The notes below the pieces were generated by a model. The model ran no database searches and was not told where the DNA came from. It was given only the letters and a program-made list of their open reading frames with translations. Shown one piece after another: positions 22,004 through 40,035 of a stretch of 46,282 nucleotides of DNA. The position numbers and the translations under genes are program-made. The stretch is from contig JACRNP010000077.1 in assembly GCA_016234845.1 (NCBI GenBank), forward strand, positions 1 to 46,282, read 5' to 3'. How positions within the stretch are numbered: the stretch's first letter is position 1; every line of letters starts with the position of its first letter. Source of the DNA: Deltaproteobacteria bacterium. GTDB lineage: Bacteria; Desulfobacterota; Deferrimicrobia; Deferrimicrobiales; Deferrimicrobiaceae.

Positions 22004-24241
22004 GTGACCCGCACGGGACGTTGGCGATATCCTCTCCTTGAGCGCGGGAGCGGGTGGCTGGGGGGGAATCGATTCCCCGAGAAGGTCGCCGCGGCGTACA
22101 TATTGTGCGGCGTCTTCCTCCTCGCCCTGACGGAGCGGTACATCCATCCGGTATTCCCGGGGTACGTCGATGACGCGATCTACATCGCCTGCACATCGGT
22201 CATCCTCTTCCTGATCGTCCGGAGCGGCGTGAACGCCTTGAGCGCGAAGGAGGCCGCCCTCCGGGAGAGCGAGGACCGGCTGGCCCGGATCCTGGAGACC
22301 AACGCGGGAGGGATCGTCGTCTTCGACGCGAAAGGGGTCATCACGTTCGCCAACCACGCGGCGGAGAAGATCCTGTCCGTCGAGCGTTCGCGCCTCATCG
22401 GCCTTCGGCACGACGACCCGGCGTGGGACATGACCGACGCGGACGGCGCGCCGATCGGGCACGAGGAGCTCCCCGTGGCGAAGGTCCGGACGACCCGGAT
22501 GCCGGTGTACGACATCCAGTTCGGGGTCCGGCACCGGGCCGGGGCCAACGTCATCCTGTCCGTCAACGCCGCCCCGCTCCTCGACTCGTCGAACGAGATG
22601 GTCGGAACCGTGGCCTCCTTCACGGACATCACGGCGCGGAAGAAGGGGGAGGACCTCCGGATCCGGAAGCTCCTCCTGGCCGTGGAGCAGAGCCCATCCG
22701 CCATCGTCATCACCGACCTCGAGGGGAACGTGGAGTACGCGAACCACCGGTACGCCCTGATGACCGGGTGCCCCGTGAAGGAGGCCATCGGCGGGAAGAT
22801 GCCCCACCCGTGTCTGACCTCCAGCCGCCGCCTGGAGGAGATGTGGTCGGCCATCCGGTCGGGGAAGGCGTGCCACGGCGAGTTCGAGTGCACCCGGAAC
22901 GGCGGCGAGGCGTACTGGGAATCGACCACGATGACGCCGATTCGCACCGCGGAGGGGGAGATCGCGAATCTCCTGTGGGTGCGGGAGGACATCACCGACC
23001 GGAAGCTGGTGGAGGAGGGGCTTCGCCGGAGCGAGGCGAACTACCGGACGGTCCAGGAGAAGTTCCGCCAGATCTTCGAGCAGAACGAGGAGCCGCTGTT
23101 CCTCTTCCGGCAGGGGACCGGCGAGATCCTGGACGCGAATCCCGCGGCCGCGCTCCTGTACGGGTGCGACCGGGAGGAGCTTCGGAGGGAAGGCGTATCC
23201 CTTTTCGTCCCGCCGGCGGACCTGCACGAATTCCGGTCGGCCATCGCGGCGGTCCGCCCCGGGGCGGGGCTGTCCATCGATTGCGCGCGCCACCTCCGGA
23301 AGGACGGGGTGCGGATCGTGGTGTCCATCCGGGCGAATTCGATCCGGACCGGGGACGAGGAGGTGGTCTACGGCTCCTTCCGGGACATCACCGCCCGCAT
23401 CCGGATGGAGGACGAGGCGAAGCACCACCAGGCCCAGCTCATCCACGCGAACCGGATGACCTCCCTGGGGACGATCGTCTCCGGGGTCGCCCACGAGGTG
23501 AACAACCCGAACAACCTCATCATGTTCAACGCGCCGATGATCCTCGCCGCCTGGGAGGACGCCGCGCCGATCCTGGACGCGTACCACCGGGAGAACGGCG
23601 ATTTCCACCTGGGAGGGCTGCCGTACTCCGAGATGCGGTCGGTGGTCCCCAGGCTCGCCGCGGGGATATCGGACGCCTCGGTCCGGATCAAGACGATCGT
23701 GGCCAACCTCAAGGATTACGCACGCCAGGAAGGGCCCCGGAGGGTCGCGGCGATCGACGTGAACGACGTCGTCCGGACCGCCATCGCCATTCTCAACCAC
23801 GAGATCATCAAGGCCACCCACCGGTTCGAGCTGATCCTCGAGGAGGGGCTCCCGCCGGTGAACGGCTCCGCCCAGCAGCTGGAGCAGGTCGTCATCAACC
23901 TGGTGAACAACTCCCTGCAGGCGCTCCCGTCGAACCGCCGGGGCCTCCGGGTCTCCACGCGGAACGTTCCGGACACCGGAGAGATCGAGGTGACGGTCGA
24001 GGACGAGGGGGCCGGGATGCCGCCGGATGTGCTGGCACGGGTGGCCGAGCCGTTCTTCTCCACGCGGACGGACAGCGGCGGGCTGGGGCTTGGGCTGTCG
24101 ATCTGCCGATCCATCGTGGACAAGCACAAAGGCTCCCTCTCCTTCGAGTCCGAGGTGGGATCGGGGACCCGTGCGGTCATCCGCCTTCCCGCCGTAGGGG
24201 CGGGCGCGGTGCGGGACGCGCTGGCGTCCCGGAAGGGGTGA
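22004..24241 (+). CDS. Multi-PAS membrane sensor histidine kinase
   Basis: A 745-residue kinase starting at a GTG 8 bases after GGAGGGAGG. Two membrane helices lie near the N-terminus (AAAYILCGVFLLAL and AIYIACTSVILFLIV), followed by three PAS domains (about 85-220, 225-340 and 345-465). HisKA has phospho-acceptor His497 in SGVAHEVNNPNNL, with an insertion (about 515-545) between the two helices, and the ATPase domain follows (NLVNNSLQAL, DEGAGMPPDV, GLGLGLSIC). The sigma-54 activator gene starts 3 bases after its stop, so the two are almost certainly a pair. The ligand is unknown. Confidence 0.9.
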   Translation: MTRTGRWRYPLLERGSGWLGGNRFPEKVAAAYILCGVFLLALTERYIHPVFPGYVDDAIYIACTSVILFLIVRSGVNALSAKEAALRESEDRLARILETNAGGIVVFDAKGVITFANHAAEKILSVERSRLIGLRHDDPAWDMTDADGAPIGHEELPVAKVRTTRMPVYDIQFGVRHRAGANVILSVNAAPLLDSSNEMVGTVASFTDITARKKGEDLRIRKLLLAVEQSPSAIVITDLEGNVEYANHRYALMTGCPVKEAIGGKMPHPCLTSSRRLEEMWSAIRSGKACHGEFECTRNGGEAYWESTTMTPIRTAEGEIANLLWVREDITDRKLVEEGLRRSEANYRTVQEKFRQIFEQNEEPLFLFRQGTGEILDANPAAALLYGCDREELRREGVSLFVPPADLHEFRSAIAAVRPGAGLSIDCARHLRKDGVRIVVSIRANSIRTGDEEVVYGSFRDITARIRMEDEAKHHQAQLIHANRMTSLGTIVSGVAHEVNNPNNLIMFNAPMILAAWEDAAPILDAYHRENGDFHLGGLPYSEMRSVVPRLAAGISDASVRIKTIVANLKDYARQEGPRRVAAIDVNDVVRTAIAILNHEIIKATHRFELILEEGLPPVNGSAQQLEQVVINLVNNSLQALPSNRRGLRVSTRNVPDTGEIEVTVEDEGAGMPPDVLARVAEPFFSTRTDSGGLGLGLSICRSIVDKHKGSLSFESEVGSGTRAVIRLPAVGAGAVRDALASRKG

Positions 24242-24244
24242 CCG

Positions 24245-25705
24245 ATGCCCGGGATTTCCGAGGGCGGGAGCCCGATCCTCCTGGTCGACGACGATCCGCA
24301 CTTTCTCGTCTCCTCCGGCGTCACGCTCCGCTCCGCCGGCATCTCCCCCGTCGTCACGATCGAAGACAGCCGCCAGGTGGTCCCGTTCCTCGAGGAGCGG
24401 CCGGCCGCCGCGGTGGTGATCGACCTGTCGATGCCCCACCTCTCCGGAAGGGAGCTGCTCGCGCTGCTCCGGGAACGCCACCCGGAACTTCCCGTGATCG
24501 TCATGACCGGCCACAACGAGGTCGAGGTCGCGGTGGAGTGCATGAAGGCGGGCGCGTTCGACTACCTGGTGAAACCGGTCGAGCGTTCGCGCTTCGTCTC
24601 CTCCATCCGGCGGGCGCGCGAGGTGAGGTCCCTCCGGGAGGAGGTCGATTCCCTGAAGGCCCACTTCCTCTCCGGCAAGATCCGGAACGAGGCCGCGTTC
24701 GAGGAGATCGTCACCGGCAGCCGGAAGATGGTCGCCGCCTTCCAGTACATCGAGGCGATCGCGGCGTCGCGCCACCCGGTCCTGCTCACGGGCGAGACCG
24801 GGACCGGGAAGGAGCTGTTCGCCCGGGCGATCCATGCCGTAAGCGGGCGGAGAGGGGAGATGGTCCCGGTGAACGTGGCGGGGCTGGAGGACGCGATGTT
24901 CTCCGACACCCTCTTCGGCCACCGGAAGGGGGCGTACACGGGCGCCGACCACCCCCGGGAGGGGCTGATTTCACGGGCGGCCGGGGGGACACTGTTCCTG
25001 GACGAGATCGGCGATCTGGGCGAGGCGTCCCAGGTGAAGCTCCTCCGCCTGATCGAGGAGCGGAAATATTACCCGCTCGGCTCGGACGTCCCGAAGGAGA
25101 GCGACGCCCGCGTCGTCTGCGCCACCCACCGCCCGGTCGAGTCCCTCTTGAAGAAGGGGGGGTTCCGGAGGGACCTCTACTACCGCCTGTCCGCGCACCA
25201 CGTTCACCTGCCGCCGCTGCGCGACCGCAAGGAGGACATCCCGCTCCTGGTGGACGTGTTTCTGGAAGAAGCCGCGTCGGAAGAGGGGAAGAAGCGGCCG
25301 ACCCCGCCCGCGGAGCTGTACACGCTGCTGTCCACCTACGATTTTCCCGGGAACGTCCGGGAGCTCCGGATGCTGGTGTTCGACGCGGTCCTCCGGCACA
25401 GGGGGGGGGTCCTCTCCCTCGACAGCTTTCGATCCGCGATCGGACCCAGGAGCGTTCCGGCGACGGCCGACGCGTCCGGAACGTCCTCGACGGATCCGGG
25501 GGCGTCCGGCACCTTCCCCGCCCTGTCCCGGCTTCCCACCCTGCGGGAGGCCGAGGAGCAGCTCGTGGCGGAAGCCCTCCGGCGCGCCCGGAACAACCAG
25601 GGGATCGCGGCGTCCCTCCTCGGGATCACCCGGCAGGCGCTCAACAAGCGGCTGGTGAGGGAAGCCAGGAACCACCCCCGGCCGGAAGACGCCCCCGGAG
25701 AGTAG
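24245..25705 (+). CDS. Sigma-54-dependent NtrC-type response regulator
   Basis: A 486-residue activator. The receiver has Asp15-Asp16-Asp17 and phospho-acceptor Asp60 (VVIDLSMPHLSG). The AAA+ domain has Walker A GETGTGKE, sigma-54 contact loop GAYTGA (Phe replaced by Tyr, a tolerated variant) and GGTLFLDEIGD. A Fis-type helix-turn-helix (GIAASLLGITRQALNKRL) lies near the C-terminus. It is 3 bases after its kinase and 3 bases before a stand-alone receiver. Likely targets are the sigma-54-like promoters found downstream at 26320, 26940 and 27620 (inference). Confidence 0.9.
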   Translation: MPGISEGGSPILLVDDDPHFLVSSGVTLRSAGISPVVTIEDSRQVVPFLEERPAAAVVIDLSMPHLSGRELLALLRERHPELPVIVMTGHNEVEVAVECMKAGAFDYLVKPVERSRFVSSIRRAREVRSLREEVDSLKAHFLSGKIRNEAAFEEIVTGSRKMVAAFQYIEAIAASRHPVLLTGETGTGKELFARAIHAVSGRRGEMVPVNVAGLEDAMFSDTLFGHRKGAYTGADHPREGLISRAAGGTLFLDEIGDLGEASQVKLLRLIEERKYYPLGSDVPKESDARVVCATHRPVESLLKKGGFRRDLYYRLSAHHVHLPPLRDRKEDIPLLVDVFLEEAASEEGKKRPTPPAELYTLLSTYDFPGNVRELRMLVFDAVLRHRGGVLSLDSFRSAIGPRSVPATADASGTSSTDPGASGTFPALSRLPTLREAEEQLVAEALRRARNNQGIAASLLGITRQALNKRLVREARNHPRPEDAPGE

Positions 25706-25708: not shown

Positions 25709-26101
25709 GTGGGCGACACCCCGCGAATCCTGATCGTGGACGACGAGGCGCCGTTCCGGTTCTCGGCGACGGTTGCGCTGCGGCAATCCGGTTTCCGGGT
25801 CGCGGAGGCGCGGGACGGCGCGGAGGCGATCGTGAAGATCCTCGAGGCCCGCGACGCGGGCGACCCGTTCCGCCTCGTCGTGACCGACATCCGGATGCCC
25901 ACGATGTCCGGCTCGGAGCTGATCGACGCGCTCGCCGCCCGCGAGATCGGGACTCCCGTGTGCGCGATCACCTGTTTCGGGGACCGGGGCCTTGTGACGG
26001 ATCTCGCCGCCAAGGGGTGCACGGAGTACCTGGAGAAGCCGTTCTCGCCGGAAGAGCTCGTAGCGTGGATCACCCGCGTCCTCTCTTCCGGCCCTCGCTG
26101 A
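25709..26101 (+). CDS. Stand-alone receiver, phospho-acceptor intact (paralog 1 of 3)
   Basis: A 130-residue receiver starting at GTG, 3 bases after the activator stop. It keeps Asp11-Asp12, the phospho-acceptor Asp60 (VVTDIRMPTMSG), Thr (AITCF) and Lys (YLEKPFS). It shares the segment FRFSATVALR with the next two receivers, which defines a local paralog family. With no output domain it may act as a phosphate sink or relay for the adjacent kinase. Confidence 0.88.
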   Translation: MGDTPRILIVDDEAPFRFSATVALRQSGFRVAEARDGAEAIVKILEARDAGDPFRLVVTDIRMPTMSGSELIDALAAREIGTPVCAITCFGDRGLVTDLAAKGCTEYLEKPFSPEELVAWITRVLSSGPR

Positions 26102-26138
26102 ATCCCGGCGATTCCCTTCGGTGCTCCGCCGACTTGGG

Positions 26139-26172
26139 TGCAACGCAGGTTGCAGGCCGCATTGCGGTTGCA
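26139..26172 (+). promoter_or_regulatory. Candidate activator-binding palindrome (TGCAAC-N4-GTTGCA plus extra half-site)
   Basis: A perfect palindrome TGCAAC-N4-GTTGCA spans 26139-26154, with another GTTGCA at 26167-26172. It lies about 150-190 bases upstream of the sigma-54-like promoter at 26320, the usual distance for an enhancer bound by an NtrC-type activator. The binding protein is not proven; the nearby activator at 24245 is the obvious candidate. Confidence 0.4.
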
Positions 26173-26319
26173 TCCCCGCATAACCGTTACTTTTTCAATA
26201 GATACGCCGATCGATCCGTTCCCCTTGGGGTTTCACGCGCAGCCGGCGCTTCGCCTCCGACTGAGGGGAGTGGCGACATATGTGATCGGTTTATAAAGTA
26301 AATATACCGGCGGGCCGTT

Positions 26320-26335
26320 TGGCACCGCTCTTGAA
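26320..26335 (+). promoter_or_regulatory. Sigma-54-like promoter before receiver paralog 2
   Basis: TGGCAC-N5-TTGAA, with GG at 26321-26322 and ten bases between GG and the -12 element. It matches the TGGCAC-N5-TTGCW consensus with one change (TTGAA). It lies about 50 bases before the GTG of the receiver at 26385. The 283-base gap 26102-26384 contains no gene. Confidence 0.6.
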
Positions 26336-26384
26336 GTACAAGGGGCCCAAGGCAGGATCCGAAGAGATCAGGGGGGGCGGGCGG

Positions 26385-26777
26385 GTGACCAACGACAAGC
26401 ACATCCTGATCGCGGACCCGGAAGCGGGGTTCCGCTTTTCCGCGACGGTCGCCCTTCGGAAGGCCGGGTACCGGATTTCGGAGGCGTTGAGCGGCCTGGA
26501 CGCCCTCGCGCAGATCATCCGCCTGCACGAGGATGATATGACTCCGGACCTGCTGATCACAAACTGCGGGATGCCGGACCTGTCCGGCGCGGATCTGGTA
26601 CTTGCTCTTCGCCGGCTCGATGTTTCGGTCCCGGTGTTCGCGATCGCGGAAAACCTGGACGCCACGCTCCTGGGCGACCTCGCCGTTGCGGAGTGCGTCG
26701 GGCTGATAGAAAAACCGTTCCCGCCGGACGAACTGGTCCGCAGCGTGGATCGCGTCCTCGGGATGGACGCGGCATGA
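26385..26777 (+). CDS. Degenerate stand-alone receiver, Asn at phospho-site (paralog 2 of 3)
   Basis: A 130-residue receiver, the same length as paralog 1. It aligns without gaps: FRFSATVALR is identical, but the phospho-acceptor is Asn60 (LLITNCGMPDLSG), the second acidic-pocket residue is Pro12 (LIADPEAG) and the conserved Thr is replaced by Ala (FAIAEN). The Lys is kept (LIEKPFP). It is therefore unlikely to be phosphorylated in the usual way and may act as a phosphorylation-independent or constitutive protein. The GTG at 26385 aligns with its paralogs; an in-frame start at 26319 would overlap the sigma-54 promoter. Confidence 0.85.
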   Translation: MTNDKHILIADPEAGFRFSATVALRKAGYRISEALSGLDALAQIIRLHEDDMTPDLLITNCGMPDLSGADLVLALRRLDVSVPVFAIAENLDATLLGDLAVAECVGLIEKPFPPDELVRSVDRVLGMDAA

Positions 26778-26796
26778 TCCGGAAAACCCCGCTACC

Positions 26797-26820
26797 GGAG
26801 GCCGGAATCGTCCGGCCTCC
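26797..26820 (+). terminator. Stem-loop after receiver paralog 2
   Basis: A perfect 9-base-pair stem (26797-26805 with 26812-26820) with a 6-base loop lies 19 bases after the stop. There is no T-run directly after it, so it may be an attenuator or an RNA-stabilising hairpin rather than an intrinsic terminator. Confidence 0.45.
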
Positions 26821-26837
26821 CGCTCGTCCCGCCCCAC

Positions 26838-26884
26838 GGGCCGGTCCCCGGGAGAAGACCCCGAGGGCCGGCCCCCTTCTTTTC
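26838..26884 (+). terminator. Second GC-rich hairpin with T-rich tail
   Basis: GGGCCGG at 26838-26844 pairs with CCGGCCC at 26868-26874, enclosing a further GC-rich segment, and is followed by a T-rich stretch ending near 26884. Together with the stem at 26797 it may end transcription before the third receiver gene. Confidence 0.45.
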
Positions 26885-26939
26885 CGGCGGGGACTCGCCG
26901 GCGCTTGACATGGCGATGGATCGGTTCGAAGGGTGATAT

Positions 26940-26955
26940 CGGACCCGGCATTGTG
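26940..26955 (+). promoter_or_regulatory. Weak sigma-54-like promoter before receiver paralog 3
   Basis: CGGACC-N5-ATTGT-type site with GG at 26941-26942, ten bases, then GT at 26953. The spacing is right but the match is poor. It would start transcription about 35-40 bases before the GTG at 27001. Confidence 0.3.
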
Positions 26956-27000
26956 CGGGGGGCGGCGGCGGGATAAGATTCCGGGGGAGGGGGGAGCGGC

Positions 27001-27402
27001 GTGGAACACGGGAAGCACATTCTCCTGGTCGACGAGGATCCTTCGTTCCGGTTCTCGGCCGGAATCGTCCTGAGGAATGCCGGGCTCCGCGTGAGCGAGG
27101 CCGGGGACGGCGAGGAGGCGCTTCGCCGCTTTCGGGATGCCCGTTTCGGGAGGAACCCGGTCGACCTTCTCCTCGCGAATGTCCGGACGCCGGGGATGTC
27201 GGCGCTGGAGCTCATAGACGAGATCCGCCGGCTCGGCGACGACGTTCCCTTCGCCGTGATGACCTGCTGCGACGAGCCGTGCGTCTCGGAGGAGATCCGG
27301 AAGCGCGGGTGCCGCGATGCGATCGCCAAGCCGTTCGACCCCGCGGAATTCGTCCGCCGGGTTCGCCGTGCCTTGGAGGACTCTTCGGAACCGGTGTGCT
27401 GA
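27001..27402 (+). CDS. Degenerate stand-alone receiver, Asn at phospho-site (paralog 3 of 3)
   Basis: A 133-residue receiver related to the previous two (HILLVDEDPSFRFSAG, then GLRVSEAGDGEEAL). The phospho-acceptor position is again Asn60 (LLLANVRTPGMSA). Asp11-Glu12-Asp13, Thr (AVMTCC) and Lys (AIAKPFD) are kept. The GTG at 27001 follows GGAGGGGGGAG. It lies 320 bases before the giant multicopper oxidase and is the nearest regulator gene to it. Confidence 0.85.
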   Translation: MEHGKHILLVDEDPSFRFSAGIVLRNAGLRVSEAGDGEEALRRFRDARFGRNPVDLLLANVRTPGMSALELIDEIRRLGDDVPFAVMTCCDEPCVSEEIRKRGCRDAIAKPFDPAEFVRRVRRALEDSSEPVC

Positions 27403-27722: not shown

Positions 27723-30700
27723 ATGAAAAAGCAGAGGCTCTCCAACCGGATGTTCGTTGCGGTCCTCATGCTCTCCACCGTAATCGGAGCGTACCCCGTC
27801 GGCGGTGCGTCCGCGGCGATCACCTGCGAGCGGGAGGTGACCGCGGACGTCGTCGCCTTCGACAAGCCGATCATGTACAACCGGCTCGGCGCGGGCAACG
27901 TGAACGGGATGATGTACGCCCTGTCGCGGGACGTGGTCAACGTGGGGACCCTTGCCCCGCTCACCGTCGCGCCGGGAGGGGCCGTTGCCGGGGAGGTCGA
28001 CCTCCGCCCGGACAAGCGGCAGCGGCCGCTGATCCTCCGGGTCCGCGTCGGCGACTGCCTCACGGTCAACCTGACAAACCTCCTGACCCCGGCGGCGAAC
28101 CCGTTCAAGTTCAACACGGCTCTCGAGGATGTCGTCACGGTCGCCGGTCAGGTGTTTCCCGCCTCCATCGACGAGCAGGTCGCCTCTCGGGTGGTCGGGT
28201 TTCACGTCTCCGGGATGCAGCTGGTGAACGGCATCGACGACGACAGCAGCATGGTGGGGAGGAACCACCTGGGCCTGCCCGGCAGCCAGGGAACGCCCGA
28301 TGCGGTCAACGGAAGCATGGCGGGGATCGGCCAGACCCGCTCCTACAAGCTGTACGCGGAGAAGGAGGGGGCGTTCCCGGTGAAGAGCGACGGCGCGACC
28401 TTCGGCTCCGACGCCAACCAGGGGCAATCCTCCACCGGCCTCTTCGGCCAGGTCATCGTGGGGCCCAGGGGTTCGGCGGCGTACCGCGGACAGGTCTTCG
28501 AGGAGGAGATGCGGCTTTCGGCCGACGCGAACCGAGACGGGGTCCTCACCGGCGCGGAGAAGACCGCCCAGGGGCACCCGGTCCTCGACTACGAGGCGGT
28601 CTATCCCGCGACGTCCCCGTGGACCCTCGAAGGGAAGGCCGGGCTCCCGGTCCTGAACATGATGAAGGCGACCGGGACGTTCACGGGCGCCGTTCCGAAC
28701 GTGGAGATCGTCCACTCCGAGATCAACGCCGTGGTCGCGTACGGCCCGAACGGGGCGACGACCGCGGACGGGATCTTCCCGCCCTCCACCTATCCGCTGG
28801 AGAGCGTGGGCAAGCGGAACCCGTCGATTCCGAACCGGCTGGAACCGTTCCGCGAGTTCGCCCAGGTCTGGCACGACGAGCCCGCCACGGCGCAGGCGTT
28901 CCCGGCGTTCTACGTCGGGAACCCCATCTGGAAATACGTGCTGGCGGGGGTCAAGGACGGCTTCATGATCAACTACGGCTCCGGCGGGATCGGGTCGGAG
29001 ATCATCGCGAACCGCCTGGGCGTCGGGCCGATGCACGACTGCCTCACGTGCGCCTACGAGGAGTTCTTCCTCACCTCCTTCACCGTGGGGGATCCGGCGA
29101 TCACGGTCGACGTCCCGGCGAACGTCGGGCTGGAGACGTGCGTTGTGAACCCGGTGTCCGGCGCGCTGGAGGGCGACTGCGCAGGCGCCGGCCAGCGGAA
29201 GGCGAACTACGTCATCGGGGGGGAGGACCCGGCGAACATCCACCACAGCTACACGGGGGACTTCGCCAAGTTCCGCAACACCCACATCGGGAAGGAGCAG
29301 CACGTCTTCCACCTGCACAACCACCAGTGGCTGTACAACCCCAACGACGACGGCAGCAACTACCTCGACGCCCAGGGGGTCGGGCCGGGGGTCGGGTACA
29401 CGTACGAGATCAACTTCGGCGGCTCGGGCAACAGGAACAAGAGCGCCGGGGACGCGATCTTCCATTGCCACTTCTACCCGCACTTCGCGCAGGGGATGTG
29501 GTACCACTGGCGGCACAACGACGTGTTCCAGTCCGGGACCCTTCTCGCCGTCACGCCGAACGACGGCGCGGGGAACCCGACCGGATACCACCTCGTCCCC
29601 TGGGATCTGAAGGTCACTATCCCCGCTCCGGTCACCTTGACGGTCGGCGGAGTCACCGTGACCGGCCGCGCGCGCGCGTACCCGGACGGGGAGATCGAGA
29701 CCGGGACGGCCATCCCGGCGGTGGTTCCGCTTCCCGGGAAGCCGATGGCCGTGATGCCGGGCCCCGTCCCGGCGGCCACCGTGCTGGTCGTCCCGAAGCT
29801 CGCCGCCGACAACGTGACGGTCGTCGGCTCCAACGCGAAGGTGATCGACCGGGCGAGCAACCCCGGCTTCCCGTTCTGGGTCGCGGGGATCGAGGACGTC
29901 GTGGGGCAGCGTCCGCCGACGCCCCCGCTCGACATGCTGACCCCTGCCAAGGCGACGGCCCTCAAGGCCTCCGGCGGACTCTGGGCGAATATCGACAGCG
30001 CCCAGGCGGACGGATGGGACGGCGGGCTTCCGCGGCACGCGCTGCAGGGATTCTCGGATAACGGGGCGGCGACGACCGTCACCCTCGCGGCCGATTTCAG
30101 CAAGGTCGTCCACGCGGCCAAGCCGGTCTACTTCCCCGAGGAGGGGACCGACCTCGAGCAGGCGGCCATGGCGTTCCACGCGAAGAAGTTCCACGCCACG
30201 TACCTCCCGAACGGAACGCCGCTTTCCGGAGTGGACAACGGATTCCGCACCAACGGCGGGGGCGGGCCCGTGGTGGGCGCGCCGTACCACAACCCGTGCA
30301 TCGACGACGAGGCGACCGTCCTGGGCGCGGGCGTCCTCGGGAAGTTCTTCAGCGGGGAGACCGCCGGCAACCCGATGAGCGTCCGGGGCCGGAGCGTCTT
30401 CAACTCCGACACCCCCCGGATCTACAAGGGGACCAACCTCCAGTTCGACGTGGTCCTGAACAAGGTGGGGTACCATTACCCGCAGCAACGGATCGTGGCC
30501 CTGTGGGAGGACGTGGCGCCGATCATCCGGAAGAACAAGGCGCCGGAGCCGCTCGTCATGCGGCTGAACACCTTCGACTGCGGCATCTACCACCATTCCA
30601 ACCTCGTTCCGGAAGTGTACGAGATGGACGACTACCAGGTCCGGACGCCGACCGACATCATCGGCCAGCACATCCACCTCCCGAAGTGGGACCTGACCAC

Positions 30701-33700
30701 GACGGACGGCGCGGCGAACGGGTGGAACTACGAGGACGGGACGCTTTCGCCGGGCGCGGTCCAGGAGCGGATCCACGCGATCAACGCCTACAACACGACT
30801 CCCGGGATCGCCCCGGTCGCCGCGCTTGCGGGGGGCGGGCCCGTGGTCACCTCCGCGGGGCACACCGTCCCGTCGACCGGAATCCTGCACGAGGAGGCCC
30901 ATCCGTACTTCGGGCCGGTGGCCGCCGCGTTGGGCGGCGCGTTCCCCGAGCGTTGGGCGGGCGCCCGCACGACGACCCAGCGCTGGTTCGCCGACCCGGT
31001 GGTGAACGCGGAGGGAGTGGACCGGGGCCTCGGGATCATCTTCACCCACGACCATTACGGGCCGTCCACCCACCAGCAGATCGGCCTCTACGCGACCGTG
31101 CTGGCGGAGCCGGCGAATTCCCTCTGGAAGCACAACGAAACCGGCGTCCAGCTCGCGTGCGCGGACGCCGTCAACCCGAACTTGCCGGGCCCGTCTCTTG
31201 CGGAGAACAAGATCCCGTGCCGCTGGGACGGCGGCCCCACGAGCTGGCAGGCGCAGATCGTTCCGCGGGCGCCCCTGGGGGGCGTGAACGTCCTGGCGGA
31301 GACGATCGAGCCGTTCCGCGAATTCTACTTCGAGTACACCGACTTCCAGCACGCCTACGAGGCCGGAATCTACGTGGGAGCCGACCAGGACGGGCTGGCG
31401 CTCCCCGGGACGGGCCCCGGGCTCCCGGCTCAATTCGCCAACCTGGGCAATCCGGCGTTCCCGGCGGCCGGTACCGCGGCCGACCTCTTCCGGTTCGCCA
31501 TCAATCCCCCGGCGCGGTTCCAGGCCGCACAGGTCTTCCCCGATCTGGTGGTGGAGGCGAACGATTGCGTCCTGGATCCGCTGAATCCGTCATTGGTCCT
31601 GCTGTCCCGCCCCTGCCCGCAGGCGATCGACGTGCAGGACCCCGGCCTGTTCGTCGTGAACTACCGGAACGAGCCGGTTGGGCTGCGCGTCTTCGACCCG
31701 AACAAGATCGGCCCGGACGGCAAGCCGGGGATGCAGGCGGACGGCGCGGCCGGGGATCTCGCCCTGGCGCTGTCGTCGAACGTCAATCGCAGGATGCCGC
31801 AGCTGAACGTGCAGCCGACGGCGGCGACGGTGATCAACGGCACGAAATTCCCGCCGCCCATCAACTCGGGCGGGGTCGCCGCCCGGGATCCGTTCACGCC
31901 GATGGCGCGGGCGTACATGGGCGACCGGATCCGCGTCAAGGTGCAGGCCGGCGGGGACGAGGAAGAGCACAACGTCATGATCCACGGCATGAAGTGGCTG
32001 CAGGCGGGCTCCGGACACGGCCGGGCGCCGAACTCCGGGTGGCGCAACTCCCAGGCGGCGGGGATTTCCGAGCAGTTCACGCTGAACACCCCGGTCACCC
32101 CCCTGATCCGGAGCTCGAACCGGGCGGACTACCTCTACACCATGGACGCCTCCAACGACGGCTTCTGGAGCGGGATGTGGGGCGTGATCCGTTCCCACTC
32201 CAACTTCCAGAACACGCTGAGCCTCCTCCCGGGGAGCCTGGTCACGCCGACCCGGCCTCTCACGCTCTCCAACCAGTCGCAGTTCAACGGGTCGTGCCCC
32301 GTTGGCGCTCCGACGAGGAGATTCGACGTCACGGCCGTGCTGGCCAACCGGGTGCTCCCGAACGCGTTCGGGGTTCCCATTCCGGCGAAGGGGCAGGGCG
32401 ATCCGATCGCGGACAACTCGGTCGGAGCGGGGCTGAACCCCCTCGGAGGAACGCTGGTGTACAACCCCCGGGCCGACGTGGTCGGCGGACAAACCATCGT
32501 CGATCCGGAAACCAGCGTCCAGATCACCCTTCCGGCCAACCGGGGACCGATCCACGACCCGACGGCGATGATGTACGTCCTCACGTCCGACCTCGAGGTG
32601 AGGCCGGCGGCGGAGCTTTCTCCGGCGCAGAAGCTTTTGTGCGCCGCAGGCGGCGTCAACAATCCGCTCTGCCCCGTGCGGCTCAAGGCCACCGCTCCCG
32701 TGGAGCCGCTGGTGCTGCGGGCGAAGGCGGGGGAGTGCGTCAACGTGACGCTGCGAAGCCGGCTGGAAGCGGTCGCCCCCGATCTCGCGTCGTACTCCTC
32801 GATGATGGGGGTGGTGAAGCGCGACCGGTTCGATCCGGAAGGGTCGACCACGTTCCAGCCCAACCTCATCCGGCCCTCGTCGCTCGCAGGGCTGCACCCG
32901 CAACTGGTGGCCCACGACGTCACGCGGGACGACGGGGTGGTCGTCGGCCTGAACCCGACCTTGACCCAGGTGTCGGCCCTGGGTCTCCCGGTGTCGTACC
33001 GCTGGTACATGGGGGACGTCTCCGGGGTGCCGGCCGGCAGCAACCTCCAGCTCGTGGCGACGCCCGTGGAGTTCGGCGGGTTCAGCCTTGCGCCGGCGGA
33101 CAAGATCAAGCAGGGCGCCAAGTCGCTGGTGGGCGCGATGGTGGTCGAGCCCTCGAACACCGTCACGATCACCCAGAACACCCAGGTGCCCAACCGGCAG
33201 GGGGATTTCCCCGGCGTAACCCCGCGACCCACCCGCCTGACCCGGACGCAGGCCACGATCACGGCGCCGGCCGGCTCGGACGGGAGCGGGGGGACGTTCC
33301 GCGACTTCTCCCTGGTCCTGACGAAGGCGCTGACGCAGTACTACACCGACAACGCGACGGGGCGGCTCACCCCCGTCGAGCACATGAACGGCGAGGGGGA
33401 TGGCATCCCGGAGGACAGCCAGGAGGCGAGCGGCATGGCCCTCAACTACGGGATCGAGCCGATGTGGTTCCGGTTCGGCATCCTTCCGCAGGCGCCGTTC
33501 GGCGGAGCGGGGACGCCCGCCAGCTACGGGTCGATCCCCAACGCCCACCAGGCGTTCAGCAACGTCCTCACGGCGGGCCAGGACCCGGTCACGCCGGTGT
33601 TCCAGGCCACGGCCGGACAGCAGGCCCGGATCCGGATCACCAATCCGTTCGGGACCAGCCGCGGATCCACCTTCGCGCTTCACGGGCACGTCTGGCAACG

Positions 33701-33995
33701 CGATCCGTACGTGTGCGACGACGACCAGTACGGCCTGGACGGCAGGTGTATCACCCCCCCGACCGGCTCCTCCGTCTGGCTGGGGGCGCCGCTGGTCGGT
33801 TCACGGGCCATCGGCAACAACCCGCAGGGGTTCGCCCAGGGCGGCCAGGAGAGCTGGACGCCGATGAGCCACTTCGACATCGTCCTGCCGAGCGCCGGCG
33901 GCGGGAACGATCGGCCGGGCGACTACCTGTTCCGGGACCAGGCATCCTTCGGCAGCGCCAGCGGGCTCTGGGGCATCCTTCGGGTGAACCCGTGA
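27723..33995 (+). CDS. Giant multicopper oxidase (MofA/OmpB-like), candidate metal oxidase
   Basis: A 2090-residue secreted protein, far longer than ordinary three-domain multicopper oxidases (about 500 residues). The signal peptide is MFVAVLMLSTVIGAYPVGG, cleaved near ASA-A. Copper-site motifs are visible: HVFHLHNHQW at 527-536, HCHFYPHFAQGM at 581-592 (the complete HCHx3Hx4M pattern), QHIHL at 982-986, THDHYGPSTHQQ at 1108-1118, HNVMIHGM at 1416-1423 and LHGHVW at 1986-1991. Two regions resemble each other (about 35-120 and 1530-1680; GDCLTVNLTNLL versus GECVNVTLRSRL), suggesting internal duplication. The closest known types are the large Mn(II) oxidase MofA and Geobacter OmpB. The substrate could be Mn(II), Fe(II) or another extracellular reductant; this is inference. 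The ATG at 27723 starts the signal peptide after AAGGAG. A strong terminator follows. Confidence 0.88.
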   Translation: MKKQRLSNRMFVAVLMLSTVIGAYPVGGASAAITCEREVTADVVAFDKPIMYNRLGAGNVNGMMYALSRDVVNVGTLAPLTVAPGGAVAGEVDLRPDKRQRPLILRVRVGDCLTVNLTNLLTPAANPFKFNTALEDVVTVAGQVFPASIDEQVASRVVGFHVSGMQLVNGIDDDSSMVGRNHLGLPGSQGTPDAVNGSMAGIGQTRSYKLYAEKEGAFPVKSDGATFGSDANQGQSSTGLFGQVIVGPRGSAAYRGQVFEEEMRLSADANRDGVLTGAEKTAQGHPVLDYEAVYPATSPWTLEGKAGLPVLNMMKATGTFTGAVPNVEIVHSEINAVVAYGPNGATTADGIFPPSTYPLESVGKRNPSIPNRLEPFREFAQVWHDEPATAQAFPAFYVGNPIWKYVLAGVKDGFMINYGSGGIGSEIIANRLGVGPMHDCLTCAYEEFFLTSFTVGDPAITVDVPANVGLETCVVNPVSGALEGDCAGAGQRKANYVIGGEDPANIHHSYTGDFAKFRNTHIGKEQHVFHLHNHQWLYNPNDDGSNYLDAQGVGPGVGYTYEINFGGSGNRNKSAGDAIFHCHFYPHFAQGMWYHWRHNDVFQSGTLLAVTPNDGAGNPTGYHLVPWDLKVTIPAPVTLTVGGVTVTGRARAYPDGEIETGTAIPAVVPLPGKPMAVMPGPVPAATVLVVPKLAADNVTVVGSNAKVIDRASNPGFPFWVAGIEDVVGQRPPTPPLDMLTPAKATALKASGGLWANIDSAQADGWDGGLPRHALQGFSDNGAATTVTLAADFSKVVHAAKPVYFPEEGTDLEQAAMAFHAKKFHATYLPNGTPLSGVDNGFRTNGGGGPVVGAPYHNPCIDDEATVLGAGVLGKFFSGETAGNPMSVRGRSVFNSDTPRIYKGTNLQFDVVLNKVGYHYPQQRIVALWEDVAPIIRKNKAPEPLVMRLNTFDCGIYHHSNLVPEVYEMDDYQVRTPTDIIGQHIHLPKWDLTTTDGAANGWNYEDGTLSPGAVQERIHAINAYNTTPGIAPVAALAGGGPVVTSAGHTVPSTGILHEEAHPYFGPVAAALGGAFPERWAGARTTTQRWFADPVVNAEGVDRGLGIIFTHDHYGPSTHQQIGLYATVLAEPANSLWKHNETGVQLACADAVNPNLPGPSLAENKIPCRWDGGPTSWQAQIVPRAPLGGVNVLAETIEPFREFYFEYTDFQHAYEAGIYVGADQDGLALPGTGPGLPAQFANLGNPAFPAAGTAADLFRFAINPPARFQAAQVFPDLVVEANDCVLDPLNPSLVLLSRPCPQAIDVQDPGLFVVNYRNEPVGLRVFDPNKIGPDGKPGMQADGAAGDLALALSSNVNRRMPQLNVQPTAATVINGTKFPPPINSGGVAARDPFTPMARAYMGDRIRVKVQAGGDEEEHNVMIHGMKWLQAGSGHGRAPNSGWRNSQAAGISEQFTLNTPVTPLIRSSNRADYLYTMDASNDGFWSGMWGVIRSHSNFQNTLSLLPGSLVTPTRPLTLSNQSQFNGSCPVGAPTRRFDVTAVLANRVLPNAFGVPIPAKGQGDPIADNSVGAGLNPLGGTLVYNPRADVVGGQTIVDPETSVQITLPANRGPIHDPTAMMYVLTSDLEVRPAAELSPAQKLLCAAGGVNNPLCPVRLKATAPVEPLVLRAKAGECVNVTLRSRLEAVAPDLASYSSMMGVVKRDRFDPEGSTTFQPNLIRPSSLAGLHPQLVAHDVTRDDGVVVGLNPTLTQVSALGLPVSYRWYMGDVSGVPAGSNLQLVATPVEFGGFSLAPADKIKQGAKSLVGAMVVEPSNTVTITQNTQVPNRQGDFPGVTPRPTRLTRTQATITAPAGSDGSGGTFRDFSLVLTKALTQYYTDNATGRLTPVEHMNGEGDGIPEDSQEASGMALNYGIEPMWFRFGILPQAPFGGAGTPASYGSIPNAHQAFSNVLTAGQDPVTPVFQATAGQQARIRITNPFGTSRGSTFALHGHVWQRDPYVCDDDQYGLDGRCITPPTGSSVWLGAPLVGSRAIGNNPQGFAQGGQESWTPMSHFDIVLPSAGGGNDRPGDYLFRDQASFGSASGLWGILRVNP

Positions 33996-34166: not shown

Positions 34167-36128
34167 GTGAAACGGGATAACCGCCGCACCGGGATGCTCC
34201 TCGCACTGGCGATTTCGATCCCGCTCCTGTTCGTGTGCTCCCCGTTTCCCGCCGGGTCGGCCGATTCTGCCGCCCCGGCGTCGTCGCAGGCCATTCCCGG
34301 CACCGACAACGTCGCGCGGGAGGGGGTCCGGGTGGAGTTCTCCTACTCCCCCGCGGGGAAGCGCGACGGCGGGGTGATCGAGGGGGAGTTCGCCGAACTC
34401 CGGTTCCGGGTGACCGAGGAGGCGAAGGGGAAACCGGTCCGCTCCCTGCGGCCCGGGGCATGGATGGATATCAGCCGCCCCATGGACGCGAGGCCGGGGC
34501 AGGACCGTCCCGATTGCCGGAAAAAGGTGGGCCTGTACCTGCAGGGGATCGTCGGAATCCGGCCGATGGTCGACCTGAACGGCTACTACATCGTGGTGCT
34601 GAACCAGGAGCCGAACCTCTACGTGATCGACCCGTTCGTCGGCATGGCCGGGAAGACGAACCTGCTGACCACCGTGCGCCTTCGGGAGCCCGGGACGGAT
34701 TGGGTGAAATCCGCGGACGAGAAGCGGCTCTACGTGACCCTCAATCGCGCCGGCAAGGTGGCCGTCGTCGACGCCGAGGCGTTCAAGATCGTATCGGAGG
34801 TCGACGCCGGGAAGAGCCCTGTGCGGCCCGCGCTCCAGCCCGACGGCCAGCTCCTGTGGGTCGGCAACGACGCTCCGGAAGGGGTGGAGGGCGGAGTGAC
34901 GCTGATCGACACCGCGTCCCTTTCGAAGGTCGCGGAGATCCCGACGGGAAAGGGGCACCACGAGCTCGCCTTCACCGACGACAGCCGCTACGCCTACGTA
35001 TCGAACCGGGGGAGCGGCACGGTGTCGGTGATCGACGTCCGGGAGCGGAAAAAGGTCCGGGACGTGCCCGTCGGCCCACAGCCGATCTCGCTTTCGTACT
35101 CTTCCACCGCCCGTGCGCTCTACGCGGCGGACGGGCAGGAGGGGACGGTCTCCGTCGTGGACGGGAAGAGCCACGAGGTGACGGCCAGGATCCAGGCGAA
35201 GCCCGGGCTGGGGCCGATGCGGTTCACGCCGGACGGCCGGTGGGGGCTGATCCTGAACTCGCGGGAGAACGCCGTCCACATCGTCGACGCGTCGAACAAC
35301 CGGGTGGCGCACACCGTGGCCGTGGGGGAGACCCCGTACCAGATCGCGCTCACCCGCGGTTTCGCCCACGTGCGCTGCCTCGGCACGGAGCGGGTCTTCA
35401 TGGTCAACCTGGACCTGCTGGGGAAGGACTCCCCGCCGCCGGTTCAGAGCTACGGAGCGGGATCGGAGGCGCCGAAGGACGCGCCGGGGCTCGGGATCGC
35501 GAACGGGATCGTCGGCGTGACCGGCCAGTCCGAGGTCCTGATCGTGAACCCGGCGAGCAACACGATCTTCTTCTACATGGACGGGATGAATTTCACCTCG
35601 GGGAGCTTCCCCGGGTACCGGCAGCATCCCCGCGGCGTGGAAACGATCAACCGGAGCGTGGTGGAAACGGAGCCCGGCGTCTACACCGCGAGGGCCCGGG
35701 TCCCCGTGGCGGGAGAGTACGACGTGGCGCTGTTCATGGACTCCCCGAGGTTCGTGCAATGCTTCACCCTTTCGGCGGGTTTGAACCCGGATCTCCGGAA
35801 GGGTCCCGCGTACGAGGTGGAATACCTCCGGGAGGACGGCGGCGCCGCCCTGGAAGAGGAGTACCGGTTCCGGTTCCGCCTGAAGGATTCCCTGACCGGG
35901 TGGCCGGTGAAGGGGGTTGCGGACGCCCGGCTGCTGTACTACCTCTCCCCGGGGAGATACCGGTCCGAGGTTCCCGCCCCGGAGGTGGAGGAGGGGGTCT
36001 ACGAGGGCACTCTCCGGTTCCGGGAGCCCGGCGCGTACCACGTCCACGTCGGCGTGCCGTCGCGGAACATCGGGTACCGGACCTTCATCCACCGCTCCCT
36101 GCTGGTGAAGTCGAACAGATCGAAGTGA
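34167..36128 (+). CDS. Exported YVTN/YncE-type beta-propeller protein
   Basis: A 653-residue exported protein starting at GTG after GGGAGG, with a signal segment (MLLALAISIPLLFVCSPF). Residues about 145-400 contain repeated beta-propeller blades of the YVTN type (RLYVTLNRAGKVAVVD, YAYVSNRGSGTVSVIDV, ALYAADGQEGTVSVVDG, AVHIVDASNNRVAHTV). The C-terminal 200 residues are beta-rich and Ig-like (VYTARARVPVAGEYDVALFM, and a closing GAYHVHVGVP). Such propellers are often found beside multicopper oxidases, denitrification enzymes and cytochromes, where they may act as scaffolds or bind a cofactor. It is the first gene of a four-gene operon with the cytochrome fusion and two SCO proteins. Confidence 0.82.
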   Translation: MKRDNRRTGMLLALAISIPLLFVCSPFPAGSADSAAPASSQAIPGTDNVAREGVRVEFSYSPAGKRDGGVIEGEFAELRFRVTEEAKGKPVRSLRPGAWMDISRPMDARPGQDRPDCRKKVGLYLQGIVGIRPMVDLNGYYIVVLNQEPNLYVIDPFVGMAGKTNLLTTVRLREPGTDWVKSADEKRLYVTLNRAGKVAVVDAEAFKIVSEVDAGKSPVRPALQPDGQLLWVGNDAPEGVEGGVTLIDTASLSKVAEIPTGKGHHELAFTDDSRYAYVSNRGSGTVSVIDVRERKKVRDVPVGPQPISLSYSSTARALYAADGQEGTVSVVDGKSHEVTARIQAKPGLGPMRFTPDGRWGLILNSRENAVHIVDASNNRVAHTVAVGETPYQIALTRGFAHVRCLGTERVFMVNLDLLGKDSPPPVQSYGAGSEAPKDAPGLGIANGIVGVTGQSEVLIVNPASNTIFFYMDGMNFTSGSFPGYRQHPRGVETINRSVVETEPGVYTARARVPVAGEYDVALFMDSPRFVQCFTLSAGLNPDLRKGPAYEVEYLREDGGAALEEEYRFRFRLKDSLTGWPVKGVADARLLYYLSPGRYRSEVPAPEVEEGVYEGTLRFREPGAYHVHVGVPSRNIGYRTFIHRSLLVKSNRSK

Positions 36129-37699
36129 CCGTGCGCCGGCCCCTTTCCGCCGCCGTGGCCCTCTGCCTTCTCTCCGTCGCCGTCGCGGCGTCGGCGGAGG
36201 GTCTGACCGAGGCGCAGCGGAGGGGGAAGCGGATCTACATGGAGGGGAAGGGCCGGGGGAGGATCGCCGCCTTCCTCGCCGGGGCGGGGATCAGCGCCCC
36301 CGGCAAGGGATTCCCGTGCGTCAACTGCCACCTCGCGGGCGGGGAGGGCCAGCGGGAGGGCGGCGTCCGGTCGGCCGACATCACGTGGTTCCACCTCACC
36401 AAGGAGTATTCCGGCCGGCGCGCGACGGGCAGGGCACACCCCGCGTACACCGAGGAAACGGTCCGGGCGGCGATCACCAAGGGGGTCGATCCCGCCGGCA
36501 ACGCGCTGGATCCCGCCCACCCGCGGTACACGATCTCCCGGGAAGACCTCGAAGACCTCGTGGCGTACCTCCGGGCGATGGACCGGGAGCCGGTTCCCGG
36601 CGTGACGGACAACGAGGTCCGCGTGGGGGTGCTCCTTCCGGAGCGGGGGCCCGTCGCGGAGGCGGGGACCGAGGTCCGCGCGCTCCTTGCCGGCTGCTTC
36701 GCGGAGGTGAACGGACGCGGAGGGATCTTCGGGCGGTCCCTCGTGCTGGTTCCCGTGCCGTACGACCCCGCCGCGGAAGGGTCCGCCCTCGCCGCGGCGA
36801 AACGGGTGGTCGGCGGGGAGTCCGTGTTCTGTTTCCTCGCCAACGTCGGCGTCGCGCCGGGGAGCCCGGCCGCCCTGTACCTCGCGGACGAGAGGGTGCC
36901 CGTGATCGTGCCGCTCCTGTCCCCGTCCGAGGGCGGCTACCGGGCGGACCGGTACACGTTCCACGTGTTCGCCGGCATCCGGGAGCAGGCGCGCGTGCTG
37001 GTCGATTTCCTCGCGGAGCGCTCGAAGGGGGCGGTCGCGAAGGCGGGAATCCTCCGCTCCGGGGACCGTTCCGGGGAGGGGGGCGCCGAAGGGGTCCGGG
37101 AGCAGGCGGAGAAGAACGGCCTCGCCGTGTCCGCGGAAGTGACGTTCGAGCCGGGGAAGCTGGACGCGGCGGAAGCGGTTGCGCGATTGCGGGAGTCCGG
37201 GGCGGGCGCCGTCTTCTACTTCGGGGGCCCCTCGGAAGCGCTCTCCTTCGCCGCCGAGTCGGCGCGGCTGGGATGGGAGCCGTGGTTCCTCGCGCCGGCG
37301 CCGATGATCGGGAGCGCCCTGCAGTCGTCGGCTCCCGCGCGCTTCCTCGATACCGTGTACCTCGCATCGCCGCTTACCGTCCCGGAGCCGGAGCGGATGG
37401 CGGAATTTCTTCGGATCGGAAAACGGTACGGCTCGGGGGAACGGCACCGGACGTTCCAGTTCCTCGCCTACGCCGGGTCGCTCCTGCTGGAGGAAGGGCT
37501 CCGGCGGGCGGGGAAAGGGGTGACCCGCGAGAGTTTCGTCGCGGGCATCGGGAACGTGTGGAGGCTCGAGACGGGTGTGACGCCGCCGCTGACGTACACG
37601 GCGAACCAGCGGGTCGGCGCCCTCGGGGCCGTCGTCATGAAGGTGGATCCCGGCAGCCGGCGGCTCGTGCCCATGACGAAGTGGCGGGAGCCCAGGTAG
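36125..37699 (+). CDS. Cytochrome c fused to a LivK-type periplasmic binding protein
   Basis: A 524-residue exported fusion starting at a GTG overlapping the previous stop (GTGA); an alternative GTG is at 36131. After the signal peptide (LSAAVALCLLSVAVAASA) a class I-type c domain of about 110 residues has one heme site, CVNCH at 65-69, with YTEETVRAAITKGVDPAGN and ISREDLEDLVAYLRAMD typical of small cytochromes. From about residue 165 the protein is a type 1 periplasmic binding fold of the Leu/Ile/Val family (EVRVGVLLPERGPVAEAG, GRGGIFGRSLVLVPV, AVFYFGGPSEALSFAAE). No ABC permease or ATPase is nearby, so the binding domain probably senses or presents a ligand rather than feeding a transporter. 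The arrangement is unusual. Confidence 0.85.
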   Translation: MTVRRPLSAAVALCLLSVAVAASAEGLTEAQRRGKRIYMEGKGRGRIAAFLAGAGISAPGKGFPCVNCHLAGGEGQREGGVRSADITWFHLTKEYSGRRATGRAHPAYTEETVRAAITKGVDPAGNALDPAHPRYTISREDLEDLVAYLRAMDREPVPGVTDNEVRVGVLLPERGPVAEAGTEVRALLAGCFAEVNGRGGIFGRSLVLVPVPYDPAAEGSALAAAKRVVGGESVFCFLANVGVAPGSPAALYLADERVPVIVPLLSPSEGGYRADRYTFHVFAGIREQARVLVDFLAERSKGAVAKAGILRSGDRSGEGGAEGVREQAEKNGLAVSAEVTFEPGKLDAAEAVARLRESGAGAVFYFGGPSEALSFAAESARLGWEPWFLAPAPMIGSALQSSAPARFLDTVYLASPLTVPEPERMAEFLRIGKRYGSGERHRTFQFLAYAGSLLLEEGLRRAGKGVTRESFVAGIGNVWRLETGVTPPLTYTANQRVGALGAVVMKVDPGSRRLVPMTKWREPR

Positions 37700-37755
37700 G
37701 CCGTCCGGCATCCTATCGACGGCGGGATTCCGCGGAATCGCGGGAAGGAGGCGGA

Positions 37756-38391
37756 ATGGGGATGCCCCGGACGTGGAAGGTACCGGCGCTGGCCTGTGCC
37801 GCATCGGTCCTCGTGGCCTGCCTGCCGCCGCCGGCGTTTCCGGATGCCGGCGGGAAGGCGGGCGGGGAGGAGAAGGTCGAATCGCGGCCCGTGCAGGTGA
37901 AGCTGGTCGACCGGACGCTGCTTACCCAGGACGGGAAGCCGGTGCGGTTCCGGACCGACGTGGTCGGCGACCGGATCGTGGTGATCGACACCTTCTTCAC
38001 CACCTGCGGCCTCATCTGCCCCATCCTGGGCGCCATCCTGATGGAGCTGCAGGAGAAGGTCGGCGACCGTCTCGGCGGAGAAGTGGCGCTGGTCTCGATC
38101 TCCGTGGACCCGGGGACCGACATCCCTCCCCGGCTGAAGGCGTACGCGGAACAGTGGGAAGCCCGCCCGGGGTGGATCTTCCTTACGGGGGGGAAGCCGG
38201 ACGTGGACCAGGTGCTGTCCGGGCTGGGGCTCTACGCGGCGAATTTCGCGGAACACCCCTCGACGTTCCTCGTGGGGGACGGGAAAACGGGCGAGTGGAC
38301 CCGCTTCTACGGTTTCGCCACCCCGGAGCAGTTGATGGAAAAGGTCACGGAGCTGACCGGAAAACGGAAGGCGGGAGGGAAGGCGTCATGA
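37756..38391 (+). CDS. SCO1/SenC-family copper chaperone lipoprotein
   Basis: A 211-residue thioredoxin-fold protein with lipobox LVAC (Cys22), so probably membrane-anchored. The SCO copper site is complete: Cys84 and Cys88 in CGLIC (CX3C) and His167 (AEHPSTF). SCO proteins deliver copper to, or reduce the cysteines of, CuA oxidase sites and other copper enzymes. In this context the giant multicopper oxidase upstream is a possible client. The ATG at 37756 follows GGAGG. Its stop overlaps the start of a second SCO gene. Confidence 0.9.
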   Translation: MGMPRTWKVPALACAASVLVACLPPPAFPDAGGKAGGEEKVESRPVQVKLVDRTLLTQDGKPVRFRTDVVGDRIVVIDTFFTTCGLICPILGAILMELQEKVGDRLGGEVALVSISVDPGTDIPPRLKAYAEQWEARPGWIFLTGGKPDVDQVLSGLGLYAANFAEHPSTFLVGDGKTGEWTRFYGFATPEQLMEKVTELTGKRKAGGKAS

Positions 38392-39083
38392 GGAGAATAT
38401 CGGTTGCGGCGGCCGCGGCCGTCGTGATGGCCGCCCTGGCGTTCCCCCTCCCGGTTCCCCCGGCGGTCGCCCACGACGAACACGCCCACTCCCCGAAGGC
38501 GACTCCGCCGCCGGGGGCGCAGGACGTACCCAGGCCCGCCGTCCCGAAGCGGCTGGACGAGAACGAGCAGCGGAAATATTTCACCGACCTGCCGCTCCAG
38601 GACCAGGACGGCAGGGCGGTTCGTTTCTACACGGACATGCTGAGGGGCCGGATGGTCCTCATCAGCTTCATCTACACCAACTGCACGGACATCTGCCCGA
38701 CCCTGATGCACAACCTGGTCGACGTCCAGGAGAGCCTGGGGGACCGGTTCGGGAAGGACGTGTTCTTCGTGTCGATCAGCGTCGATCCGGAGGACGACAC
38801 CCCCGAGGAGCTGAAGAAGTACGCGGAGCGGTACGAGGCGAAGCCCGGCTGGACCTTCCTAACCGGGAAGAAGGAGAATATCGACTGGGTGGTCTACAAG
38901 CTCGGGCAGTACACGCCGGACTTCGAGGACCACTCGATGCTGTTCCTGCTCGGGGACGTGAAGAACGCGCGCTGGGCGAAGCTGAAAGGGGACGCGGATC
39001 CCGGAGTGGCGATCGCGAAGATCCGGGAGTTCCTGCAATACCGGGATTCCGGCCCGGGCTCCCTGCTGCTGTCCCCGAAGTGA
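38388..39083 (+). CDS. Second SCO1/SenC-family copper chaperone
   Basis: A 231-residue exported protein with a signal peptide (VAAAAAVVMAALAFPLPV), coupled to the previous gene by an ATGA overlap. After the signal comes a His-rich start to the mature chain (AHDEHAHS), a possible extra metal site. The core site is Cys99 and Cys103 in CTDIC and His182 (EDHSMLF), all intact. The two adjacent SCO proteins differ in sequence and anchoring, which suggests distinct roles such as copper delivery and thiol reduction. Confidence 0.9.
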   Translation: MRRISVAAAAAVVMAALAFPLPVPPAVAHDEHAHSPKATPPPGAQDVPRPAVPKRLDENEQRKYFTDLPLQDQDGRAVRFYTDMLRGRMVLISFIYTNCTDICPTLMHNLVDVQESLGDRFGKDVFFVSISVDPEDDTPEELKKYAERYEAKPGWTFLTGKKENIDWVVYKLGQYTPDFEDHSMLFLLGDVKNARWAKLKGDADPGVAIAKIREFLQYRDSGPGSLLLSPK

Positions 39084-39267
39084 GGCGCTTCCCTTTTTCG
39101 AAAGGGGTGCGAAAGGTTTCTCAGGGGTTTCATACGGGCGGGATCCAGTAGGAAATACTTTCCCCTCTTTTCCTTCTTATTGCTCCATTCTTTTCGGAAT
39201 GAATCCGGGTTCCATGGAAAATGTCATTAAAAACAGATAGCCACGTGATATCGCCATGGGGTGGGAT

Positions 39268-39283
39268 TGGAACATGGATTGCA
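39268..39283 (+). promoter_or_regulatory. Sigma-54 promoter of the PEP-CTERM gene
   Basis: TGGAAC-N5-TTGCA with ten bases between GG and GC, one change from consensus. It lies 60 bases before the GTG at 39343. PEP-CTERM genes in other bacteria are commonly driven by sigma-54 with the PrsK/PrsR pair, which supports this call. It is the best sigma-54 match in the window. Confidence 0.7.
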
Positions 39284-40002: not shown

Positions 40003-40035
40003 CGATCGTCGAGTCCGTCGAACGATTGAACGAAT

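Follow-up and report, generated by a model that had tools for sequence, protein, structure and literature searches.

The 46,282-nucleotide contig JACRNP010000077.1 (assembly GCA_016234845.1, Deltaproteobacteria bacterium, family Deferrimicrobiaceae), hereafter the window, carries at positions 27723–33995 of its forward strand what is very probably the gene for an MnxG-type, that is Pseudomonas-type, giant multicopper oxidase, lying within the operon usual for such genes. The open reading frame begins with ATG at 27723 and runs intact to the stop at 33995, encoding 2090 residues, and its guanine plus cytosine (GC) content at the three codon positions (0.65/0.49/0.92) indicates a strong coding bias. 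A Sec-type signal peptide was read from the sequence at about residues 1–32 (MKKQRLSNRMFVAVLMLSTVIGAYPVGGASAA). The multicopper oxidase of 2090 residues reported in the first-pass annotation of this DNA is thus borne out by an intact frame with one complete set of copper ligands.

Pfam multicopper-oxidase models gave only sub-threshold matches, so that the protein looks exotic. NCBIfam model NF041487 (manganese-oxidizing multicopper oxidase MnxG) matched it over positions 1–1893 of 1894 (E = 0, 2211.9 bits). A scan of genome contigs returned at least 560 mnxG relatives, the best 80 of which, mostly full-length Pseudomonas proteins, are the related loci referred to below. Over aligned positions the identity is 55% to MnxG of Pseudomonas putida (L053), 61–66% to the nearest Burkholderiales sequences and 67% to one gene from another genome of the host family. 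The size had been taken as unusual; however, about 1,950 residues is normal for MnxG of the Pseudomonas type (the model has 1894 positions and the open frames of the relatives run to ∼1920–2090 residues), and a length of 2090 does not stand out. The protein and its operon are therefore a known kind of system and mostly ordinary, with the host lineage as the sole surprise, and the novelty suggested at first essentially gives way to membership of an annotated family of known function, MnxG.

The copper ligands were examined in an alignment of 32 sequences, in all of which, beyond what chance would give, twelve residues (H527, H530, H532, H581, C582, H583, H587, M592, H983, H985, H1109 and H1111) are identical. 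Motif L3, H527xxH530xH532 (29301–29318, forward strand, as are the other three motifs), would supply type 1 and type 2/3 copper ligands, its ligand roles being assigned from the canonical multicopper-oxidase motif; motif L4, H581-C582-H583xxxH587xxxxM592 (29463–29498), would supply type 1 and type 3 ligands. Both are placed in cupredoxin domain 2. Domain 3 holds motif L1, H983-I-H985 (30669–30677), and motif L2, H1109-D-H1111 (31047–31055). By sequence, the type 1 and trinuclear ligand set is complete and spans residues 527–1111. The HCHx3Hx4M motif at residues 581–592 (HCHFYPHFAQGM) and HLHNHQW at 530–536 were found where the first-pass annotation had placed them. Of the four further histidine pairs that it listed, those at 983–985 (HIH), 1109–1111 (HDH) and 1987–1989 (HGH) are present, but H1416, in EEHNVMIH, is a single histidine; residue 1987 varies in the alignment (H, Q, D, N, A or Y).

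Profile comparison of the chain with itself revealed internal repeats, residues ∼33–330 resembling 1640–1860 (probability 98%) and 1380–1520 resembling 1860–2090 (95%), and the N-terminal and C-terminal halves align with each other as profiles. From these repeats and the ligand pattern we infer six cupredoxin-like domains arranged as three repeated two-domain units, with the sole full copper centre predicted in domains 2 and 3. The sites near 1416 and 1987 are read as equivalents of L3 without a cysteine-containing L4. Several copper centres in one chain were considered and rejected, the histidine motifs further along lacking the cysteine. Copper motifs do occur over the whole chain, as had been noted, but they amount to one complete set with degenerate repeats elsewhere. 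The solved structure of Bacillus MnxG (PDB 9BXA) is colinear with the protein across the whole chain, and H587 aligns with residue 340 of Bacillus MnxG, the histidine mutated in 9BXA (H340A). The predicted structure of residues 1180–2090 was usable (predicted local distance difference test, pLDDT, 68.6; predicted template modelling score, pTM, 0.78), with 9BXA as its best PDB match and a weaker match to ceruloplasmin; a search of a viral fold library was uninformative.

The genes that follow mnxG, all on the forward strand, correspond to those of the mnxG operon. A beta-propeller protein (cytochrome d1/YncE/lactonase-like) with a YtkA-like C-terminus (34167–36128) is the counterpart of ‘lactonase f.’ in the P. 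putida operon. Next comes a fusion of a cytochrome c domain (CVNCH) with a periplasmic binding protein (Peripla_BP_6; 36131–37699), hereafter cytc/PBP, which probably corresponds to ‘ABC’ in the published operon, and then two SCO1/SenC copper chaperones (37753–38391 and 38412–39083, both starts approximate). The operon of P. putida GB-1 and Pseudomonas OF001 comprises lactonase, SCO, ABC and SurA genes (PMC8218464), and all four mnxG partners (propeller, SCO, SCO and cytc/PBP) were found in the window. The order mnxG-propeller-SCO-SCO-cytc/PBP occurs in 63 of the 80 related loci; in the window, as in two other genomes of the host family, cytc/PBP has moved forward, giving propeller-cytc/PBP-SCO-SCO. 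Its CxxCH motif is kept in every cytc/PBP protein detected at the related loci (67/67). This fusion of a cytochrome c with a LivJ-type binding protein constantly accompanies mnxG (67 homologues); the published operon figure labels a gene, probably this one, only ‘ABC transporter’. A redox protein that binds a ligand and is linked to Mn oxidation may be worth studying. A PEP-CTERM surface protein (39343–40002, forward strand) lies at the right end of the block, in a stretch of unusually low GC (39084–40096, 53% vs 68% for the window), and no homologue of it was found among the 80 related loci.

Upstream of mnxG the forward strand encodes a PAS sensor histidine kinase (22004–24241) and a sigma-54-activating response regulator (24245–25705), the latter analogous to MnxR; homologues of both (42% and 51% identity, respectively) adjoin mnxG in genome G050. 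By analogy with MnxS/MnxR, this directly adjacent pair probably switches the operon on. Three single-domain response regulators fill positions 25709–27402 (25709–26101, 26319–26777 and 27001–27402, forward strand), and one homologue (up to 54%) is found just upstream of an mnxG paralogue in G015, a genome of the host family. Rfam gave no match in the window, and hence no Mn riboswitch was seen there.

The mnxG block, taken from the kinase onwards, extends from 22004 to ∼40090 (∼18 kb) between genes for a CcdA-like and a DsbC-like protein. On its left lie a type II secretion operon (GspE, F, pseudopilins, K, L/PilN-like and secretin D; 10144–20583, forward strand), which is flank and outside the block, then a TlpA/thioredoxin-like gene (20600–21109, reverse strand) and beside it the CcdA-like gene (∼21141–22000, reverse strand). 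On its right lie the DsbC/thioredoxin-like gene (40096–40977, reverse strand) and an Mtr-like conduit on the forward strand, which is part of the family core and not linked to mnxG elsewhere and is made up of a putative outer-membrane barrel (41290–42672) and cytochromes with 5 and 15 CxxCH motifs (∼42654–43139 and 43153–45402). Further away, at 1360–3279, the window encodes a multiheme cytochrome with six CxxCH motifs, a Cytochrom_C552 (NrfA-like) domain and an N-terminal c3/c7-type region.

The flanks (secretion genes, DsbC, barrel, cytochromes and EamA) are colinear with those of G004, a genome of the same family, at 46–77% identity (39% for the 15-heme cytochrome). In G004 the gene order of the window, from the MASE3 kinase across the secretion genes to the PAS kinase, continues directly with DsbC, the barrel, the cytochromes and EamA, and mnxG is absent. 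In relatives G008, G010, G012 and G014 the genes run TlpA-CcdA-DsbC, with no gene between CcdA and DsbC. The block at this site is best read as an insertion, with loss in the relatives as the alternative; a homologue of the kinase is retained in G004, and the block boundaries had no common 13-base words, direct or inverted.

Quick trees under a single substitution model were built for three genes of the operon. In the mnxG tree Burkholderiales enclose the window gene and one gene of G015 (support 100), the G014 gene falls with two metagenome-assembled genomes (MAGs), one acidobacterial and one betaproteobacterial, and the second G015 gene branches deeply; monophyly of the four mnxG genes of the host family was rejected (approximately unbiased test, p-AU 7e-7). 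The cytc/PBP tree unites the same three genomes (window, G014 and G015) in one clade (100), and the propeller tree gives a third, differing picture. The three trees disagree, so the operon is a mosaic. On these trees mnxG has been exchanged between phyla, and the block was acquired, at least partly, by horizontal transfer. Across L019, L020 and the window, cytc/PBP is monophyletic in the family and mnxG and the propeller come from different clades; the pattern suggests gene-by-gene replacement inside a conserved operon. The deep-branching paralogue of G015 (L021, contig 82) lies downstream of a secretin gene and is preceded by a response regulator, a location resembling that in the window, and G015 also carries a window-like mnxG. 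A gammaproteobacterial MAG (L095) has tandem mnxG-like genes at 3595–9345 and 10001–15667.

In a sample of 395 genomes of the phylum mnxG was found in nine, the window genome included; in the host family it occurs in the window genome and in 2 of 23 others. We take this family, Deferrimicrobiaceae, to be MBNT15. The group has been described as iron-reducing and O2-respiring (PMC9386147), and the host family is probably of this kind. Three COX1-type O2 reductases in the window genome make O2 use plausible. Putative Mn-oxidising genes were previously noted in anaerobic Desulfobacterota and other anaerobic MAGs and termed enigmatic (PMC9224936), so that the host is a mild and not a new surprise. 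A search for heme-peroxidase Mn oxidases gave no match, but the control genomes gave none either, so that absence does not follow.

The most likely function of the protein, as judged from its homologues, would be secreted oxidation of Mn(II) to Mn(III/IV) with O2. The activity is known for the P. putida and Bacillus proteins (PMC5906577, PMC5622069), and a P. putida mutant left with MnxG as the sole Mn oxidase oxidises both Mn(II) and Mn(III) (PMC5906577). The signal peptide would direct the 2090-residue chain to the periplasm, where the SCO proteins may help with copper loading, and export would probably proceed through a type II secretion system. Domain 2 would hold the type 1 copper site and one half of the trinuclear one, the remaining four histidines coming from domain 3. 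Mn(II), and after it Mn(III), would give electrons to the type 1 copper; these would pass on to the trinuclear centre, where O2 would be reduced to water, and Mn(III/IV) oxide would be left outside the cell.

Several points weigh against this assignment. The score of 2211.9 bits lies under the NCBI equivalog cut-off of NF041487 (3100 bits), which the homologues from P. putida (3893) and Aromatoleum (3155) pass and those from Ramlibacter (2452), Anaeromyxobacter (2344) and a betaproteobacterial MAG (2281) do not; on these scores the window protein belongs to the wider MnxG clade and not to the strict Pseudomonas-like equivalog. To our knowledge no member of its sub-clade has been assayed. Structure prediction, proposed in the first-pass annotation for counting the copper centres, gave a usable, 9BXA-like C-terminal half but failed for the catalytic half (residues 33–1200, 25 sequences; pLDDT 43.5, pTM 0.37), so that the argument for the trinuclear geometry comes from homology only. 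No SurA gene, as reported for the P. putida operon, was found in the window, and a scan for sigma-54 promoters yielded 23 sites against 25.5 expected, none of them convincing.

A protein of the MnxG clade might act mainly on another substrate, such as Fe(II), Cu(I) or an organic reductant, as could be expected from a family that, if its identification with MBNT15 is right, is probably iron-reducing (PMC9386147), from its place outside the strict MnxG group of NCBI and from the enigmatic standing of Mn-oxidase genes in anaerobic Desulfobacterota (PMC9224936). We consider this unlikely, given that all ligands and the accessory genes are conserved with proven Mn oxidase operons and that a separate, ordinary Cu-oxidase_3 protein is encoded elsewhere in the genome for other roles. 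A large Mn oxidase is also found in beta-proteobacteria as MofA, and the nearest sequences here come from Burkholderiales; the operon genes, however, are those of mnxG and not mofB or mofC, and the best NCBIfam model is MnxG, which, with no direct sequence comparison made with MofA, leaves a MofA-type oxidase a very slight probability. That the contig is foreign to the genome, a binning artefact, is scarcely credible: the position of mnxG within a Burkholderiales clade would fit it, but the flanking genes keep the order seen in G004, a member of the host family, and cytc/PBP clusters with its counterparts in two further family genomes.

Extracellular metal oxidation had been proposed partly from the neighbouring conduit and secretion genes. 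The proposal itself is supported by the closest family, MnxG, whose oxidation of Mn(II) and Mn(III) is genetically proven, and by the SCO neighbours, which belong to the mnxG operon; the adjacency is no evidence of a shared pathway, because conduit and secretion genes both occur in relatives without mnxG. A single extracellular electron pathway made of the oxidase and the Mtr-like conduit, whose genes lie within ∼8 kb on the same contig, is accordingly improbable: the barrel is present in 18 of the 23 other family genomes and mnxG in two, G014 and G015 carry the two on different contigs, and G004 shows this gene order with mnxG absent. A functional link was rejected, since the genes are unlinked in G014/G015 and the conduit persists without mnxG. 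Nothing favoured a structural redox matrix, which had also been proposed. We regard as distinctly unlikely a cycle resembling a rechargeable battery, in which MnxG would deposit Mn(III/IV) oxide at the surface while O2 is present and the conduit would respire it once O2 is gone; if true, one bacterium would produce its own solid electron acceptor.

With Mn(II) oxidation by an MnxG-type enzyme as the preferred reading, the locus adds to the range of the MnxG operon a family of deltaproteobacteria, the relatives of which are predicted to reduce iron and to respire O2 as well. It also indicates that this operon moves between phyla, partly swapped gene by gene. Given this transfer and this host, metagenome surveys in which mnxG counts as a marker of Mn(II) oxidation should expect to encounter it in metal reducers. 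The accessory set (cytochrome c/binding-protein fusion, propeller and SCO) is conserved and could be tested in laboratory Pseudomonas.

Among known systems, ceruloplasmin shares the multi-domain cupredoxin architecture, and the predicted fold of the C-terminal half matches it; its copper centre lies between the chain ends, unlike that of the window protein, which is predicted between domains 2 and 3. MofA of Leptothrix discophora is likewise a large putative Mn(II)-oxidising multicopper oxidase, set apart here by its operon, the sequences not having been compared. In the mof operon mofB is of the Mip type and mofC encodes a cytochrome c, and no Mip/FKBP-type mofB was found beside the window gene. 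MnxG of Bacillus sp. PL-12 (MnxEFG, PDB 9BXA) has colinear cupredoxin-like repeats and the common motif order L3-L4-L1-L2, but at 1227 residues it is shorter than the window protein and depends on MnxE/MnxF; the window's open reading frames showed no recognisable gene for these, no query aimed at MnxE/F having been made. Relative to P. putida GB-1, the window protein falls below the strict cut-off, the gene order is changed, the histidine kinase and response regulator are directly adjacent, SurA was not found and the phylum is different; the ligands and accessory genes are nevertheless the same, with full-length homology to the P. putida protein.

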